20,152 nt of DNA from a virus: positions 1 through 20,152 of IMG/VR virus record IMGVR_UViG_3300033153_012554. One strand, given 5' to 3'. Both the position numbers and the translations under genes were made by a program. Each line of letters begins with the position of its first letter. Within the stretch, counting starts at the first letter, position 1. Under the pieces are notes generated by a model, which saw nothing but the letters and a program-made list of their open reading frames with translations, ran no database searches and was not told the origin of the DNA. Below are positions 3,664 to 17,812 of this stretch, piece after piece.

Positions 3664-4532
3664 TATTCCAGTCCTAAATTAGCGAATTTTGTTTCTCGAA
3701 AAATCTTGTTATATAGATAAACCGGCGTCCCACCTTTGGGTAAGGCCTGTCCGTTACCATCCAGCCACCGAGGCTGGTTTAGTATTTTACCTTCCTTACC
3801 GTTTTTATCCCGCTCCCGAAACATCTTATAGGTTATGGCCCCATATTCGGGATCATCCGGATCGGTAACCGTGCCGACAATTTTACGATAACCTTCATCG
3901 AGCCTTCGTTTTTCCCAACCGTCCCGGCGGCATTGAATCTCAATCCGGACCATAAATTCCATCCAGGTCAAACCGCTCCCGCTCACAGGCGATCCTTCAT
4001 AGGTTATTATCCGACACTGGCCTGGTTGAAACCCCCAGAAGCGATCACTGTTGACAGTGTTTATATATTCGAGGGCCTGATTATCGTCAAAGCCGATCAG
4101 CTTTTTCTCGAAGACCAGGACCAGGTCTTTGAATTCCCGCATCATCGGGGGGGTATAAAATTCATTGGCGCTATTAGTGAGTGGAATGCCATCAATATCC
4201 TGATCGATCGGCTCGCTGGACGTCGCAAAATGCCGCGACACCTTCCAATTCGTCGCGGTGCTCTGCATTGACTCATATATGACCTCGACCTCGTAATAAT
4301 GGGGGGAAATCGCCCGTGCATTCTTTTGGGTAACCGCAATATAGGGGGCGTTGGGGTGGGCCGAAAACCTGGCTGGTATGCCGTGGCTATCCTGGACGAT
4401 GACCGCCGCGGCCTTCGGGTCAAAGCCCTTGGAGAACAGAACCGTCCAGACCTGCGTATGGGTCAGGCCGCCACTGACCGACCAGCTCGTGCGGCGTTTG
4501 GTGGGGTCCTCTTTGACATCAATATCCGCCAT
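3663..4532 (-). CDS. Tail protein encoded directly after the tape measure
   Basis: A 289-residue protein of mixed alpha/beta character. I do not recognise the family. In siphophages the gene after the tape measure usually encodes the distal tail protein or a tail-tip component (lambda gpM position), and the length fits a distal tail protein. The N-terminal part (1-100) is beta-rich. The middle contains aromatic residues and a DRFWGFQPGQ stretch, and the C-terminus is polar with several Gly-Asn turns. It is joined to the tape measure gene by a TAATG overlap at 4532, so translation is probably coupled. The assignment to the tail tip rests on position alone. Confidence 0.75.
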   Translation of the reverse strand: MADIDVKEDPTKRRTSWSVSGGLTHTQVWTVLFSKGFDPKAAAVIVQDSHGIPARFSAHPNAPYIAVTQKNARAISPHYYEVEVIYESMQSTATNWKVSRHFATSSEPIDQDIDGIPLTNSANEFYTPPMMREFKDLVLVFEKKLIGFDDNQALEYINTVNSDRFWGFQPGQCRIITYEGSPVSGSGLTWMEFMVRIEIQCRRDGWEKRRLDEGYRKIVGTVTDPDDPEYGAITYKMFRERDKNGKEGKILNQPRWLDGNGQALPKGGTPVYLYNKIFRETKFANLGLE

Positions 4533-6115
4533 TAAAAATTACTCCCCTCGAAATCTTGTCCCAGCCTGTCCGGTTCGAGGTCTTCGGTGTTCTTGTCAAT
4601 CTTTTGCAATAACTGGACCATTTTTTTGACGCCCTGGGCGGTTTCCACGGCCGGGTCACGGCGGCTGCCATATTGCAGGAACCGCGACTCCTGGGGGGCC
4701 AGTTTCTGTCTGAGCAAATCGGCCAGGGTGAAGGCCGCCACGGCACCGCCGGCACCGCCAGCCCGGGCCAGCGGCCCGATATAACGCTCACCGCCAGGCG
4801 GTTTTGAGGGAGTCAGGGCGGCTATCAGGGCCCGGTTACGCTTGGCCGCGGCGGTCTGTAAGTCAGCCCTCATTTGTTCGGGCATCGTGTCGGTGATCTT
4901 CTTGATCGCCGCGGACCAGGTTTCCGATATTGACGAAATAGCAGATTTAATAATCCCCTTGCTTTCCTCCGCCGCCTCGGCGGCTAATCCCTCTCGAGCC
5001 CGCCGCTCGACGGTTTTCCCGTATTCTGTGTATTCTGATTGCCGTTCATAGCGGGCGGTTTTTGAATTCCATTTTTGTACAAACATATCATCCCGGGTCT
5101 TAAATTCACCCTTAAGGATCGCGTTTTCGCGGACCTTTTGTATCCTTGCCCCCAGGGGCGCCGTAAGACCCTTTTTAAGAGCCGCCCAGATTCCCTTGCC
5201 GCCGGCGAGGGCCAGATCAATGGCCGATTCCATGGCCGCTTTCATCAGCTCCAGAAATGAATCCCACATCCAGGTGAAGGACCCCTTCCAATCGGTCTTT
5301 ATCGCATCGACGATCGACATCACCACATCTTTAAAATACGTCATATAAGCGGCCGCTTTTTCAGCAAAGACCCGGATTCGTTCCTGGTTATTCTCAGCCC
5401 ACCTCTTGATCGCATCGGCCGACTTTTGTACCCAGGGCAAAAAAGCCGCTCCGATCGCTTCCTTGACGACATCGCCGAGGGTGTTTTTCATCTGCTCGAC
5501 CGGGCCCAGGGCCGTGCGGGCGTTGACCTGGACTAATTTGTAACCATCGGCCATAGCCTTCATTAAGATCGCGTGTTTTTCGGCCTCAGTATTGGCGGTA
5601 CGCAAGGCCACGATATAAGTCGATAAGCTGGCATATTCGCCCTTAAATGCCTGGGCGATATAACGCAGGGCCATCTCCGGCTTCATCCGGCCGCCAAACA
5701 TGGCCTGGAGACCATAGGCACCTTTGACTGCCTCTTTGATCTGGCTGGGTAATATCCCCAGGTTCAATCCCATCGACATGAGCGACTCGGTCATCTCATC
5801 GCCATAGACGGTAACCTTCTGGACCTGACTGGCAAAGTCCTGGAGGTCTTTAAAGGCCTCACGCGAATAGTTACCGGTATTTTTCATCGACTGGGCCAGC
5901 AGGGCGTTAGACCTGATCTGGACGGCTGCCAGCTTGACGGCGTCCTCCATAAATCGTTTGACCGCCCGGCCGGAAAAATAGACCGCCGCGGCGGCGGCGG
6001 CCTTTTTCAGGGCTGAGGCCATGCCGGTTGCGGACCCGCCGATCTTGTTAAACTTTTTGCTCGCCTCATCCCGGGCCTTGATCAGAACATCAATCGAATG
6101 TTTTCTTTTTGCCAT
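4532..6115 (-). CDS. Tail tape measure protein
   Basis: A 527-residue, mostly helical protein. It has the usual tape-measure layout: a charged helical N-terminus (I.ARDEASK..KIGG), an Ala-rich helix at about 38-50, long amphipathic and coiled-coil-like helices, a hydrophobic middle around 260-320, a charged region, then a Gly/Ala-rich segment and polar tail. It would act as the internal ruler of the tail and as a DNA-ejection factor. The start is ATG 6115 with AAGGA about nine bases upstream. That ribosome site overlaps the -35 box of the divergent moron promoter. It is short compared with lambda H (853 residues). The usual neighbour G-T is separated from it by the inserted plus-strand gene. 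Confidence 0.9.
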   Translation of the reverse strand: MAKRKHSIDVLIKARDEASKKFNKIGGSATGMASALKKAAAAAAVYFSGRAVKRFMEDAVKLAAVQIRSNALLAQSMKNTGNYSREAFKDLQDFASQVQKVTVYGDEMTESLMSMGLNLGILPSQIKEAVKGAYGLQAMFGGRMKPEMALRYIAQAFKGEYASLSTYIVALRTANTEAEKHAILMKAMADGYKLVQVNARTALGPVEQMKNTLGDVVKEAIGAAFLPWVQKSADAIKRWAENNQERIRVFAEKAAAYMTYFKDVVMSIVDAIKTDWKGSFTWMWDSFLELMKAAMESAIDLALAGGKGIWAALKKGLTAPLGARIQKVRENAILKGEFKTRDDMFVQKWNSKTARYERQSEYTEYGKTVERRAREGLAAEAAEESKGIIKSAISSISETWSAAIKKITDTMPEQMRADLQTAAAKRNRALIAALTPSKPPGGERYIGPLARAGGAGGAVAAFTLADLLRQKLAPQESRFLQYGSRRDPAVETAQGVKKMVQLLQKIDKNTEDLEPDRLGQDFEGSNF

Positions 6116-6127
6116 GCTGTTTTTTCC

Positions 6128-6156
6128 TTGTCATCGCGCAGCCTGCCGGCTATAAT
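6128..6156 (+). promoter_or_regulatory. Near-consensus sigma-70 promoter of the moron gene
   Basis: TTGTCA (6128-6133) and TATAAT (6151-6156) are separated by exactly 17 bases, which matches 11 of 12 consensus positions. Transcription would start near 6163, 30 bases before the ATG at 6194. A strong ribosome site AGGAG lies at 6181-6185. The -35 box overlaps the Shine-Dalgarno region of the divergent tape-measure gene. Confidence 0.85.
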
Positions 6157-6180
6157 AGTTATGGTTAATCAAAAAAACAC

Positions 6181-6185
6181 AGGAG
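6181..6185 (+). promoter_or_regulatory. Ribosome binding site deciding the moron start
   Basis: AGGAG, eight bases before the ATG at 6194. It selects this start over upstream in-frame ATGs (6098 and others), which would lie before or within the promoter. Confidence 0.8.
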
Positions 6186-6193
6186 CAAAAGCC

Positions 6194-6637
6194 ATGCAAA
6201 AGACGATTATTATCGCGGTTGTTGTCGGGATTCTCTGTTTCGCCGGTGGTTTTCTGGTAGGTAATTACCGGGTTAAGGTGGTAGTTGAACCGGTCAAGAT
6301 TGATGTTGCCGGGGCGATGCGAGAGTTTCAGGACGCCCTGGCGGATACCTCGGCAGAAAACATTAACAGTGAAAAACTTGATCGGCCGCATGGCTCTTGG
6401 TATGTTGGTGATAAAATGGATGATCGGTTTATCTCCCAGATTAAACAATTCATCAAAAGCAAAAAAGCGAAAACCAACAGTTACCAGCCCCCCGAATGTA
6501 TTATTGATATGATTACTAAACATAAAAACCAAGGTTTCTATTCCGTGAATCACGAAGAATCGGAATGTCTGACAATTTTTTTTGATTCCATGCGAGACGT
6601 AGTTGATTCTGTGGAGGCCATACTCTCTACTAACTAG
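6194..6637 (+). CDS. Moron: membrane-anchored protein of unknown function
   Basis: A 147-residue protein. It has a single N-terminal transmembrane segment (about residues 4-22, after MQK) and a polar domain of about 120 residues with a basic stretch (KSKKAK) near the middle. It may be an uncleaved membrane anchor with the domain outside, or a signal peptide; no lipobox is seen. The gene is on the opposite strand to the late operon and has its own promoter and ribosome site. It lies exactly between G-T and the tape measure, and it is A+T-rich. These are the marks of a moron expressed in the lysogen. Membrane-anchored morons often cause superinfection exclusion or alter the host surface; whether this one does is inference. 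Its stop TAG overlaps the G-T stop in a shared CTAG. Confidence 0.85.
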   Translation: MQKTIIIAVVVGILCFAGGFLVGNYRVKVVVEPVKIDVAGAMREFQDALADTSAENINSEKLDRPHGSWYVGDKMDDRFISQIKQFIKSKKAKTNSYQPPECIIDMITKHKNQGFYSVNHEESECLTIFFDSMRDVVDSVEAILSTN

Positions 6638-7343
6638 CTCAAGATTCCGAGTTTTGCCTTCCATTTATTCTGTTCTCCAAATATGAATTTACAGGCCGTC
6701 AAGAAGCCGTGGCTCTGGTCCAGGGCCCCGCCGGTGACCGGCGGTAAGCCTTTGGCGTAAAGCTCGGCATATTCGATGATCTCGAAGGTCTCACGATCAA
6801 CATAATCCAACGGACAGACGGTCAGGTCAAAATCACCGCGATTATCGCAATAATCACAACCGCCGCCGCCACAGACTACGCAGGGAAACCCGACGGGCGA
6901 GTGTCCGCTGGGTTGGTCTCGGCATTTTCCAGGTCCGGGGCAACTTTTGCAGATCTGTCCGAATCGGAAGGCGACGGCGACTCTAATTTTTTTTTATCAT
7001 CAATCGAGGGCGTTTGGGCCATGATCGCCTGCATGATCTCGACCGCCTCGGCCGGGGTTAATATCTCATCGAGTTCGAGATGATCTTTGTCAAAGATGAT
7101 CGGCTCATCAGCCCGATTGTTGAGATTTTCCCAGCCAACCAGGCCAACCTCGATGATCCGATAGACCGCATCGATCGCCCCGACGCCGGTGATCATCTGG
7201 TCTAAATCATCACTAACGGCGGCCAGTTTTTTCCATTGCCGGCCGTTCAGATATCTATAAATGAACGTCGGCGGATGTTTTTTGGCCCGGTCAGTGGCCA
7301 GAACTACCGGATAAGTCGTTTGCGGGTCTAGTGTTATGGGCAT
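6634..7343 (-). CDS. Tail assembly chaperone G-T, made by -1 frameshift at A9
   Basis: The reading frame enters at the G start (7343), runs to codon 119, slips -1 in the A9 run (6995-6987), then continues from 6987 to a TAG at 6636-6634. The product would be 236 residues; lambda G-T has 279. The extension of 117 residues carries a cysteine cluster (extension residues 13, 16, 22, 36, 39, 44, 47, 58) with three CxxC pairs and a GGGG linker, suggesting a zinc-binding T domain. Its C-terminus (GGALDQ...F.TACKFI..E.NKWK) resembles the Q..F..A...I..E.N.W ending common in tail chaperone second ORFs (recognised by pattern, not by search). G-T would bridge tape measure and tail tube protein during assembly. 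No independent start with a ribosome site is seen for the extension. Confidence 0.8.
6876..7343 (-). CDS. Tail assembly chaperone G, unshifted product
   Basis: A 155-residue acidic protein encoded between tail tube and tape measure, where lambda has G. Residues 1-115 look like a folded domain with helices. After Lys117-119 the unshifted frame gives only 36 low-complexity residues rich in Ser, Pro, Asp and Ala, ending at 6876. The start is ATG 7343 with a strong AGGAA ribosome site. It coats or binds the tape measure protein during tail assembly, in a defined ratio to G-T. It overlaps the small upstream gene by 53 bases. Confidence 0.8.
   Translation of the reverse strand: MPITLDPQTTYPVVLATDRAKKHPPTFIYRYLNGRQWKKLAAVSDDLDQMITGVGAIDAVYRIIEVGLVGWENLNNRADEPIIFDKDHLELDEILTPAEAVEIMQAIMAQTPSIDDKKKLESPSPSDSDRSAKVAPDLENAETNPADTRPSGFPA
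6987..6995 (-). promoter_or_regulatory. A9 slippery site for -1 programmed frameshift
   Basis: Nine A in the mRNA sense, exactly aligned as codons 117-119 (AAA AAA AAA) of G, give an A-AAA-AAA slippery heptamer. The -1 frame beyond it is open for 117 codons. A short hairpin (TCCG-ATT-CGGA) follows about 20 bases later as a possible weak stimulator. Polymerase slippage on A9 is an alternative mechanism with the same result. Confidence 0.8.
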
Positions 7344-7497
7344 CAGCTTTCCTTTCGTCTTTGAGATATAGTTTTTGGGTCGCCGGGTCGATCGAATTCC
7401 AGATGATCATGATCCGGTCATCGTCGAGGTTTTTGGCCCCGCCGTGTCGTTTTTCGATCGCGGCCCTGATAGTTTTAAAATTTGTAGTTGTTGCCAT
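7291..7497 (-). CDS. Small protein between tail tube and G
   Basis: A 68-residue charged protein (MATTTNFKTIRAAIEKRHGG at the start) that I do not recognise. The ATG at 7497 is preferred over a TTG at 7548, which would lie before a GC-rich structure. A GGGGGGAT tract is the only ribosome-site-like element, about 14 bases upstream and partly within a possible hairpin (7512-7533). Its last 17 codons overlap the G start in another frame, so translation may be coupled. It may be a small tail chaperone or connector accessory; there is no direct evidence. Confidence 0.6.
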   Translation of the reverse strand: MATTTNFKTIRAAIEKRHGGAKNLDDDRIMIIWNSIDPATQKLYLKDERKADAHNTRPANDLSGSSGH

Positions 7498-7546
7498 AAA
7501 AACGCTCACAATCCCCCCGGACGGCCCGGGGATAAAATAACGACCC

Positions 7547-7600
7547 AAAAAGTCAAGCCAGGCCCCGCTTTGGGCACCGGCGGCGGCTGGGGCCCCCTGG
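7547..7600 (-). terminator. Hairpin and T-run after the tail tube gene
   Basis: In the minus-strand RNA, CCAGG and CCCC (separated by a GGG bulge; plus coordinates 7600-7589) can pair with GGGG and CCTGG (7566-7558). A U5 run follows six bases later (7551-7547). It resembles an imperfect intrinsic terminator or 3' stabiliser just after the most abundant tail gene. A second possible GC hairpin lies at 7512-7533. Confidence 0.4.
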
Positions 7601-7608
7601 TGGGTCTG

Positions 7609-8547
7609 TCAGGTTACGGTCAGGGACCATTCATCGTCGCCGTTATCTATATTGTCAATATTACACTGGCCAACCACCTCGTCGGTCTGGACACCTTCAC
7701 GATCGCCCGGATCGATCGAGCGGTACTGGAATTTGGGCACCGCAAAGGCCATGTTTCGGGTCCCGTTGGACACGGTCAGGGCCAGGGCCACCTCGGTGCC
7801 GGCCAGAAAGTCTCCGAAAATATCGTACCCGGCCACCAGGTCCGATTCCGGATCGATCGTCCAGGTGGGGTCCCGATCGGTGATCATGGCGTAGGCCAGG
7901 CCGCCGGCGGCCGCGGCATCGGGCCGCAAAATGACCTGATTGCCCAGATCGAACTCGAATGTATTGATCTTGAGGGCCTCGGTAGCCAGGGTAAAGGCGC
8001 CACTGGCGTTGTCCAGTTTGAGCGGTAACACCGAGGTCGGGGCCCAGGTGGGCAGGGCGCCATCGGCGGGGGCCTGCCAGATGCCGGTGAATTCGAAATT
8101 GATCCAGACCCGCTCTCCGGCGACGCCTCTAAATTTGGCGTTCCCCATTGCCCCAACTAGTTGTTTTTTCTTGCCATCCTCAAAGGCGGCGATCGTGACG
8201 GTTTTCTGATCCGCATGGACGGACGTGGGTTTATAGACCTCAGCGTCCTGCTTGACCCCGCAGGCGGTTAAGAGGGCCACCAGGCCGAGGTCCAGGGCCG
8301 CCCCCGCCGTGGGGCGGAGTTCGACATCGAAGGAACACTTTCCGGCTCGGGGCCCGTCGATGATACCCGAAGAGGTATGGCCCAGGAACTTGCCGGCGGC
8401 CTTGCGGGAAGTGAAATTGAGGTCCGGGGTGAGGGATTGATTGAAGGCCAGGATGTCGGTATCGACGGCGATCAAAGTCCCTTTAGTGGTCTCGACCTTG
8501 ACCTGGATCACTCGTTTGCGGGTGAGTAGGGGGGCTGAAAGTGCCAT
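7609..8547 (-). CDS. Major tail (tube) protein, lambda gpV role
   Basis: A 312-residue beta-rich protein placed between the tail terminator and chaperone genes, as the tube subunit of siphophages is. The N-terminal part (MALSAPLLTRKRVIQVKVET) is the usual start of tail tube proteins, which often begin with an instruction to read a reference value (E.T.GT). The middle shows alternating strands and a GPRAGKCSF stretch. The C-terminal part has an ALALTVSNG strand series. The start ATG 8547 has AGGAG ten bases upstream, a strong site fitting high expression. The gene ends just before a hairpin. Length is above lambda V (246). Confidence 0.85.
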   Translation of the reverse strand: MALSAPLLTRKRVIQVKVETTKGTLIAVDTDILAFNQSLTPDLNFTSRKAAGKFLGHTSSGIIDGPRAGKCSFDVELRPTAGAALDLGLVALLTACGVKQDAEVYKPTSVHADQKTVTIAAFEDGKKKQLVGAMGNAKFRGVAGERVWINFEFTGIWQAPADGALPTWAPTSVLPLKLDNASGAFTLATEALKINTFEFDLGNQVILRPDAAAAGGLAYAMITDRDPTWTIDPESDLVAGYDIFGDFLAGTEVALALTVSNGTRNMAFAVPKFQYRSIDPGDREGVQTDEVVGQCNIDNIDNGDDEWSLTVT

Positions 8548-8571
8548 GATTATAATCTCCTGTTTTTTTTG

Positions 8572-9033
8572 TTATGCCGGCGGGTACGGGTCACCGACGG
8601 CGTGTCTAAATTCGATTGAGACCGCCAGGGCGATCCCGGACCAGCCGGCCCCATCGTTAAATATAGTCTGTTCGGTTATTACCGTATCGATGGCCAGGGA
8701 GCTCCGTTCCACGTCGGCCATTAATTTTTTGTAAATATCACTAGCGACCTTGTTACAGGTCGTTTCGATCGAAGTTGAGGTGGCGTCGCTTTCGATCACA
8801 AAACAGACCAGGATCAGCTCCAGGCTCCAGGTCTCCATCATGGCGGCGCCCTCGATACTGTCGAGGCCAGTCATTACGATCAGGACATCGTAATTAGCCG
8901 CCGCCACATCGGAAAAGTCCTGCCGCCTGGACCGGACCGCGTTGAGGGTCTGATTGAAGCCATTGGCCACGGTGACCAGATCGATGTTGGTGGCAACGTT
9001 GGCGATAATAGATTCGACGATCGGGGTGGTCAT
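8572..9033 (-). CDS. Tail terminator protein, lambda gpU role
   Basis: A 153-residue alpha/beta protein between the Z-like and tube genes. This matches the lambda order Z-U-V and the usual size of tail terminators (about 130-160). It has an N-terminal helix, central strands (DVLIVMTGL, LELILVCFVI) and a C-terminal strand IALAVSIEFRH, compatible with the gpU/minor tail fold. It would cap the finished tail tube and join it to the head. It overlaps the Z-like gene through ATGA at 9033-9030. The assignment comes from order and size rather than from a clear motif. Confidence 0.75.
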   Translation of the reverse strand: MTTPIVESIIANVATNIDLVTVANGFNQTLNAVRSRRQDFSDVAAANYDVLIVMTGLDSIEGAAMMETWSLELILVCFVIESDATSTSIETTCNKVASDIYKKLMADVERSSLAIDTVITEQTIFNDGAGWSGIALAVSIEFRHAVGDPYPPA

Positions 9034-9611
9034 CCGGCGGCCCTCCGCCGGGCAAAGACCAGCTCTAGTTGATAGTCTATATTTTTGTCGAGATCGCGAT
9101 AGGCCTCTTTGAGCATCCGGGCCGCCAGGCCGGGGGCCTTTTCATAGACCGCCGGGATCGAGGGGCCAAACAGTTCGGTGATCGGTAACCGTTTGCCCAG
9201 GCGACGAAATACCCCGCGGTGGCCGCTCTTTAGCGTGCCAATAAAGACCGGGTTCGATTCTTTGTCGTAGGATATCGTTGTCGGGCCGCCGGTCGGATTG
9301 ATCTGGTAGCGGATATCACCGCCGGCCATTTGTCGGGCACCAAAATAAATCAGCGGGATTCGGCGGCCGGTGATATGGAGTTTCGCCTGCCAGCGGGTGT
9401 AGGTGGCCCGGTCCAGACTGATCCGCTGGCGGATGGTCTTTTGCTTGACCTTGATCTCAGCGGCGATCGCCCGGACGATCCGGGTGCGGGCGGCTAGTGT
9501 GGTTTTATTGATCGCCCGGGACATTACCCGGGGCAGGGCCCCGGGGATTCCCTTAAGAAGCGCCTGGACGCGAGCCAGTTTCTTTTTATCAAATTTAATC
9601 TCAACTTCCAT
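9030..9611 (-). CDS. Minor tail protein Z (gpZ-like)
   Basis: A 193-residue basic protein with the features of the gpZ family. It has a RAINKT...AR..I..AIA.E...K...IR motif in residues 30-62, followed by a basic strand region (AKLHITGRRIPLIYFGAR) and a C-terminal helical segment that includes GPSIPAVYEKAPGL. gpZ acts at the head-proximal end of the tail during joining and DNA passage. Its position between the gpFII-like and gpU-like genes agrees. It starts one base within the previous gene (TGATG overlap). Confidence 0.88.
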   Translation of the reverse strand: MEVEIKFDKKKLARVQALLKGIPGALPRVMSRAINKTTLAARTRIVRAIAAEIKVKQKTIRQRISLDRATYTRWQAKLHITGRRIPLIYFGARQMAGGDIRYQINPTGGPTTISYDKESNPVFIGTLKSGHRGVFRRLGKRLPITELFGPSIPAVYEKAPGLAARMLKEAYRDLDKNIDYQLELVFARRRAAG

Positions 9612-17353: not shown

Positions 17354-17542
17354 TCAGACATCATCCCCGCCCCTGATCGGCCCGCCAGCGGCCTCTGAGG
17401 GGTCCGGTTTTTCCAGGGTTCGGACCCGCTTGCCACAGTGCCGACAAATCGAATAGCGTCGGGTCCCCTTGCTCAGTTTAATCGTATGCGAGACCCGTAA
17501 GTCCCGGCAGCCACACCGCGGACATTCGATCCCGTTAGCCAT
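17354..17542 (-). CDS. Zinc-ribbon protein (NrdR/Ogr-like)
   Basis: A 62-residue protein. It has CPRCG at 8-12 and CRHCG at 33-37, four cysteines with about 22 residues between the pairs, and the sequence VSHTIKL...RRYSICRHCGKRV between and after them. That spacing resembles the N-terminal zinc ribbon of NrdR-type regulators and small phage activators such as Ogr/Com-like proteins. A DNA- or RNA-binding regulatory role is inferred. The C-terminus is acidic and Gly-rich. The ATG overlaps the end of the upstream small gene by eight bases. It is the last gene before the palindromes at 17277-17311, so it could act there. Confidence 0.75.
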   Translation of the reverse strand: MANGIECPRCGCRDLRVSHTIKLSKGTRRYSICRHCGKRVRTLEKPDPSEAAGGPIRGGDDV

Positions 17543-17663
17543 TATTTACCCCCGCGAATAGAGGTTGATCTTCGACGCCCAGGGCGGCTTCCCGTCGGCT
17601 TTGTAAATCCCCATTACCCCGCATTACCTCTAAACAGTCACCCCGAATAATTTTAATGGTCAT
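17535..17663 (-). CDS. Very small ORF beginning like a DNA methyltransferase
   Basis: A 42-residue ORF whose start (MTIKIIRGDCLEVMRGNGD) closely resembles the N-terminal motif of N4/N6 DNA methyltransferases (typically GDCLEVL.. then DPPY). No DPPY follows in any frame, so it can only be a remnant or a coincidental match. ATG 17663 overlaps the preceding TGA (ATGA) and AGAGA lies upstream, which supports real translation. A longer TTG-started reading (to 17768) is less likely. Confidence 0.5.
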   Translation of the reverse strand: MTIKIIRGDCLEVMRGNGDLQSRREAALGVEDQPLFAGVNNG

Positions 17664-17812
17664 TTGGGTCTCTTTTTTAAATCCCAGCAGAACAGCGAAT
17701 ATGTCACGCAGGTCTTTATTAGTTTGCATGGGCCACCATCCGGCCAACATGTACGCAAATACAGACAAGGCGGGGGTTCTTTATCTTGTTTTTTCTTTGG
17801 TGTTTCGCTCAT
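17660..17812 (-). CDS. Cysteine-rich 50-residue protein
   Basis: A short ORF. The Lys-rich N-terminus (MSETPKKKQDKE) leads to five cysteines (16, 22, 29, 35, 42) at nearly even spacing and several aromatic residues. GGGGA lies upstream of the ATG, and its TGA overlaps the next ATG. It overlaps the end of the previous gene by 32 bases in another frame. Function unknown; a metal-binding or disulfide peptide is possible. Confidence 0.55.
   Translation of the reverse strand: MSETPKKKQDKEPPPCLYLRTCWPDGGPCKLIKTCVTYSLFCWDLKKRPK

Follow-up and report, generated by a model that had tools for sequence, protein, structure and literature searches.

Morons are a known kind of passenger gene in phage genomes, usually working for the phage during lysogeny; a terminator of their own is usual for them but not universal. 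Two such genes have been described in phage HK97. The "reverse moron" gp23 is a small antisense gene of the tail region, situated between I and J, that overlaps gp22 and has an annotated putative terminator. The other, gp15, belongs to a family linked to the N terminus of YebO and has the G-T frameshift chaperone gene on one side and the tape-measure gene on the other. It is a predicted inner-membrane protein that acts as a DNA-injection block and in superinfection exclusion (PMC10883804).

Antisense placement within late genes has been reported elsewhere. Tab, from Pseudomonas phage JBD26, is encoded by a gene of 83 residues between the terminase genes that is antisense in the late operon, has its own promoter, is expressed from the prophage and blocks tail assembly by targeting the tape measure; a separate late-strand gene encodes anti-Tab (PMC10884400). 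A membrane-bound nuclease, SNIPE, likewise associates with the tape measure of lambda (PMC13190303). In S. aureus phage 80-alpha, with its noncontiguous operons (ith/tha), lysogenic and lytic transcription have been measured and exclude each other (PMC11087260). A further report describes locus STMMW_20121 of ST64B, which is antisense to lytic genes, and the antisense RNA STnc6030 of prophage BTP1, which is antisense to phage structural genes and excludes its own phage (PMC7067206).

Layout of the insertion

The window, meaning the whole stretch of DNA that we analyzed, is an IMG/VR virus record of 20,152 bases. Nearly all of its genes lie on the minus strand, among them those for terminase, portal, capsid, tail tube, G, T, the tape measure and the distal tail. 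A tyrosine integrase gene on the plus strand at the left end is compatible with a temperate phage, and no repressor was identified within this 20-kb fragment. The phage group has relatives in Planctomycetota genomes. Rfam and tRNA scans of the window were empty. The features of the junction are as follows.

4532 to 6115, minus strand: tape-measure protein gene, 527 amino acids, ATG at 6115
6124 to 6129, minus strand: Shine-Dalgarno sequence AAGGAA of the tape-measure gene
6128 to 6156, plus strand: sigma-70-type promoter sequence TTGTCA-17-TATAAT, with the −35 box at 6128-6133 and the −10 box at 6151-6156
6181 to 6185, plus strand: Shine-Dalgarno sequence AGGAG, separated by 8 nt from the ATG of the inserted gene
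6194 to 6637, plus strand: inserted gene, a putative moron, 147 amino acids, orphan, pI 5.6, ATG at 6194 and TAG at 6635-6637
6206 to 6262, plus strand: predicted membrane-spanning segment, codons 5-23
6131 to 6664, minus strand: overlapping 177-amino-acid open reading frame (ORF), judged not coding from codon, first-base and amino-acid tests
6634 to 6993, minus strand: T frame of the G-T tail chaperone, made by −1 frameshift, stop TAG at 6636-6634
6876 to 7343, minus strand: tail chaperone G, 155 amino acids
6987 to 6993, minus strand: slippery heptamer A AAA AAA, site of the frameshift from G into G-T

G and T are securely identified by the in-frame A-run heptamer with T in the −1 frame, which was present in 15 of the 15 sequences examined (as AAAAAAC in L019). 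The tape-measure gene follows from a gene order shared with relatives, and its protein is 26 to 46% identical, over the best segments, to the product of the ORF after T in those relatives. A second in-frame slippery-type heptamer, G GGT TTC, lies near the G stop at 6885-6891 on the minus strand and is not listed for the 14 relatives. Within the T frame, positions 6637-6900 (minus strand) encode a CxxC-GxGC-xxC zinc-knuckle-like motif that is kept in most relatives.

The insert occupies the space between the T stop and the tape-measure gene. A tetranucleotide, CTAG at 6634-6637, is common to the stops of T and of the inserted gene, and at the other end the −35 box and the ribosome site of the tape-measure gene share 2 nt (6128-6129). 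The promoter matches 11 of 12 consensus positions; no other site in the window reaches 11. When the whole window was shuffled 200 times by dinucleotides, 17% of the shuffles contained such a site somewhere; of 2,000 shuffles of the 94-nt leader, none did. The encoded protein has a single predicted N-terminal membrane helix, with a Kyte-Doolittle 19-residue peak of 2.76 over residues 5-23 that was reached by 0 of 5,000 shuffled proteins; positive charges flank the predicted helix on both sides, which leaves its membrane topology ambiguous. The base composition of the insert is foreign, with a GC content of 0.43 versus 0.54 for the window, 0.553 for the tape-measure gene and 0.534 for T.

A reading of the DNA by a model that saw only the letters (the sequence-only reading) had proposed a moron-like insertion antisense to the late operon, with a near-perfect promoter, AGGAG, a membrane-anchored product, a shared CTAG and an overlap with the tape-measure ribosome site. 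The coordinates and shared stop proved exact, the naming of G-T was correct, and the remaining elements were borne out, the promoter as near-perfect with 11 of 12 matches, and the anchor as a prediction. Its term "self-contained unit" is too strong, as we found no plus-strand terminator-like site from 6637 to 9420 in a scan to which factor-dependent termination is invisible. A plus-strand transcript may therefore run antisense into T and G.

Taken from sequence, an antisense, single foreign gene at the T/tape-measure junction fits a phage moron. It was found to have a junction insertion, its own promoter sequence and a deviant GC content, with no terminator of its own; because a terminator is usual but not universal, filing it as a moron relies on the insertion and the promoter. 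It is a new example of the antisense moron, a kind that is itself already known. The gene shares with HK97 gp15 its position and a predicted helix, but it differs in length (147 versus 62 amino acids), in strand (gp15 is in the sense of the operon) and in the annotated putative terminator of gp15. The two proteins show no similarity (BLASTP E value of 3.7 over 10 residues), and the insert has no Pfam match above chance. Like gp23, it is a small antisense gene in a tail region, although gp23 occupies a different site and carries an annotated terminator. With Tab it shares antisense placement in the late operon and an own promoter sequence; it differs from Tab in position and size. Tab is accompanied by a separate late-strand gene; here a late-strand ORF of 177 amino acids is present, but only directly opposite the inserted gene and with noncoding scores. 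In layout it also corresponds to a noncontiguous operon, as an own-promoter gene opposite to the surrounding operon. This likeness extends to 80-alpha and ST64B, except that 80-alpha has the reverse arrangement, with the lytic-side gene ith lying within the lysogeny operon.

The junction in related phages

The sequence-only reading had held that the insert separates two genes that are normally adjacent. Relatives gathered by tail tube searches and by a T protein search bear this out: in 92 of 92 assessable relatives (86 viral records and 6 cellular loci), T and the tape-measure gene overlap or lie at most 137 nt apart (−20 to +137 nt), with no gene between them. The tube searches gave 22 viral loci, 21 of them assessable (L020 is cut off), and in all 21 the tape-measure gene directly follows T, from an 11-nt overlap to a distance of 137 nt. 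From the T search, the best 80 of 212 relatives were kept, giving 79 further loci. Of these, 77 were assessable (L101 and L110 are too short); 12 were already in the tube set, leaving 65 new ones. A script placed 75 of the 77 at −20 to +125 nt, and the other two, L041 and L107, were judged adjacent by eye; their apparent gaps of more than 1 kb had made them candidates for inserts, which we rejected because their tape-measure genes start at 2938 and 3258. The cellular loci numbered 7, and the 6 that could be assessed (L031 ends too early) likewise have no gene at the junction. Since many records are near-duplicates, independent lineages are fewer than 92. A conserved, intact minus-strand gene at this place, which the earlier reading had named as evidence against itself, was thus seen in none of the assessable relatives.

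The insertion was observed in a single record, and exact-match DNA probes for the insert and for the beginning of the tape-measure gene hit no other record. We rejected a recombination scar that damaged T or the tape-measure gene, since both ends match relatives (T ends KLGI.. and the tape measure starts MA..). The Shine-Dalgarno match of the tape-measure gene comprises 5 bases, longer than in 36 of 38 relatives, in most of which the gene overlaps or abuts T; a longer match would be expected if the two genes had lost their coupling through the insertion. A scan of a genome collection with a two-sequence tube alignment gave no match.

In L012 (7582-7676), and also in L013 and L023, a 95-nt AT-rich filler with repeated words and no gene lies between T and the tape-measure gene. 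When 83 related loci were screened for antisense ORFs lying in spaces of at least 200 nt between late-strand ORFs, 6 gaps emerged. An antisense block in L016 (14561-15904), with a 304-amino-acid ORF and small hydrophobic ORFs, lies beyond the tail genes and is possibly the lysogeny end.

Product, expression and role

Across all the libraries searched, the inserted protein remained an orphan. No homologue was found in IMG/VR, phage records or plasmids, and the best match in one Planctomycetota genome was at chance level (E value of 0.19). A search of 392 Planctomycetota genomes gave no homologue, the positive control for the query being the window itself only. Matches were likewise at chance level in PDB, PADLOC (no defense-family match; Cas8b, 0.018), NCBIfam (Cmx8, 0.068), Pfam (Thioredoxin_11, 0.11) and PHROGs (best E value of 0.14; for an Rz-like spanin aligned with residues 2-28, 0.32). 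A single-sequence AF2 model of the protein had a mean pLDDT of 45 and was unusable. Because no homologue was found among these libraries, our reading of function draws on position and topology only.

The account that we consider somewhat probable as a whole is that of an antisense moron, expressed from the prophage, that guards the lysogen at the membrane as HK97 gp15 does. In this account one foreign gene, equipped with a host-type promoter of its own, has entered the late operon precisely between T and the tape-measure gene; the insertion, the matches to a promoter and a ribosome site, the predicted anchor and the empty site in relatives are read directly from the sequences. Expression in lysogeny is likely. 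The protein would protect the lysogen, and its most likely means of doing so would be to keep the genomes of related long-tailed phages from entering, in the manner of gp15. An exclusion or defense function, taken by itself, is a tentative proposal by analogy; the precedents of HK97 gp15, Tab and SNIPE, together with the anatomy of the locus, make exclusion at the membrane the best guess. That the block would act by contact with the tape measure or tube is unlikely. By its layout, the late transcript must cross the insert, and activation of the late operon would lower expression of the inserted gene through polymerases moving against each other. The opposition between lysogenic and late transcription that the sequence-only reading proposed is plausible by analogy, and the precedents of 80-alpha and ST64B make it a reasonable model.

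If the gene does act in exclusion, the T/tape-measure junction would resemble a recurrent landing site for genes concerned with genome entry, and the antisense layout would serve to test whether opposing transcription can stand in for an anti-defense gene. The phage group, with its relatives in Planctomycetota genomes, is far from the enterobacterial and Pseudomonas models, and here a putative moron with a predicted membrane anchor lies antisense at the junction that gp15 occupies in HK97. A special form of the proposal, which we regard as very unlikely, is self-immunity by layout. The membrane-bound protein would block tape-measure-mediated DNA entry or tail assembly, and a separate anti-protein would be replaced by late transcription across both gene and promoter, the −35 box and the ribosome site of the tape-measure gene having DNA in common; if translated at all, the 177-amino-acid ORF would be an anti-protein from the same DNA.

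The strongest alternative accepts a real moron expressed in the lysogen and assigns its membrane protein to an envelope or fitness change, receptor masking or lysogenic conversion rather than to a block of DNA entry. An orphan protein with one predicted helix and no PADLOC defense-family match suits such a role, but the position beside the tape measure matches that of gp15, a known exclusion gene (PMC10883804), and we consider the alternative somewhat unlikely.

The product might instead be RNA: an antisense transcript from 6163 into T and G that silences leaky late genes or excludes kin. The lack of a plus-strand terminator-like site from 6637 to 9420 would permit it, and STnc6030 is a precedent (PMC7067206). 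Such an RNA would have no need, however, of a Shine-Dalgarno sequence, a 147-codon frame with coding bias or a membrane helix, which makes this reading highly improbable.

Coding strand of the inserted DNA

Slightly more improbable still is that the real gene is the codirectional minus-strand ORF, an ordinary late gene of which the plus-strand ORF would be the shadow. A test of strand was needed because this ORF of 177 codons (6664-6131) is intact and also fills the gap. Its start lies inside T and is preceded at 10 nt by GGAG, and 15 nt separate its stop from the tape-measure ATG. In its favor, too, TTA, CTA and TCA codons are missing from the plus frame, with a chance probability of about 0.045.

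The coding statistics point to the other strand. With a codon model built from the window's 19 late-strand genes, each left out in turn, the plus frame scored 0.046 per codon, whereas the reverse strand gave −0.042; all 19 window genes likewise came out higher in sense than in antisense. Amino acid composition gave 0.049 for the plus frame versus about −0.033 to −0.034 for the minus frame, in a test that preferred the sense strand in 18 of 19 known genes. First-position G was 0.35 in the plus frame and 0.22 to 0.23 in the minus frame, the latter below all 19 window genes (0.27 to 0.43). An AT-matched codon model from relatives put the plus frame ahead by 20.5 nats, in a test that was right in only 45 of 60 genes; by the same model the minus ORF scored −27.3 nats against its own antisense, under all 60 test genes (lowest, −21.6). 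No assessable relative has a gene at this junction, which argues further against the minus ORF, and its AF2 mean pLDDT of 35.5 is weak evidence in the same direction. On the codon, first-base and amino-acid tests, we rejected the minus-strand ORF as the real gene. We judge it to be the shadow of the plus-strand gene, and the insert is very probably a real gene on the plus strand.

That the insertion is decayed or nonfunctional, a host or phage scrap with no expressed product, would suit a single record with no homologue found but is extremely improbable given the intact frame, the 11/12 promoter and a position that fits precisely between the stop of T and the ribosome site of the tape-measure gene.

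Three other regions of the window, all on the minus strand, stood out during the survey. Positions 17354-17542 encode a small zinc-ribbon protein, CPRCGCRD...RRYSICRHCGKRV, that resembles NrdR- or Ogr-type zinc fingers by eye and could, we presume, be a late-gene regulator. The short ORF at 17535-17768 contains IKIIRGDCLEVM, which we take to be like a truncated DNA methylase start and thus a possible remnant. Between the integrase and distal tail genes, an AT-rich gene at 763-1095 has atypical codon use and a GC content of 0.39, the minimum for the window.
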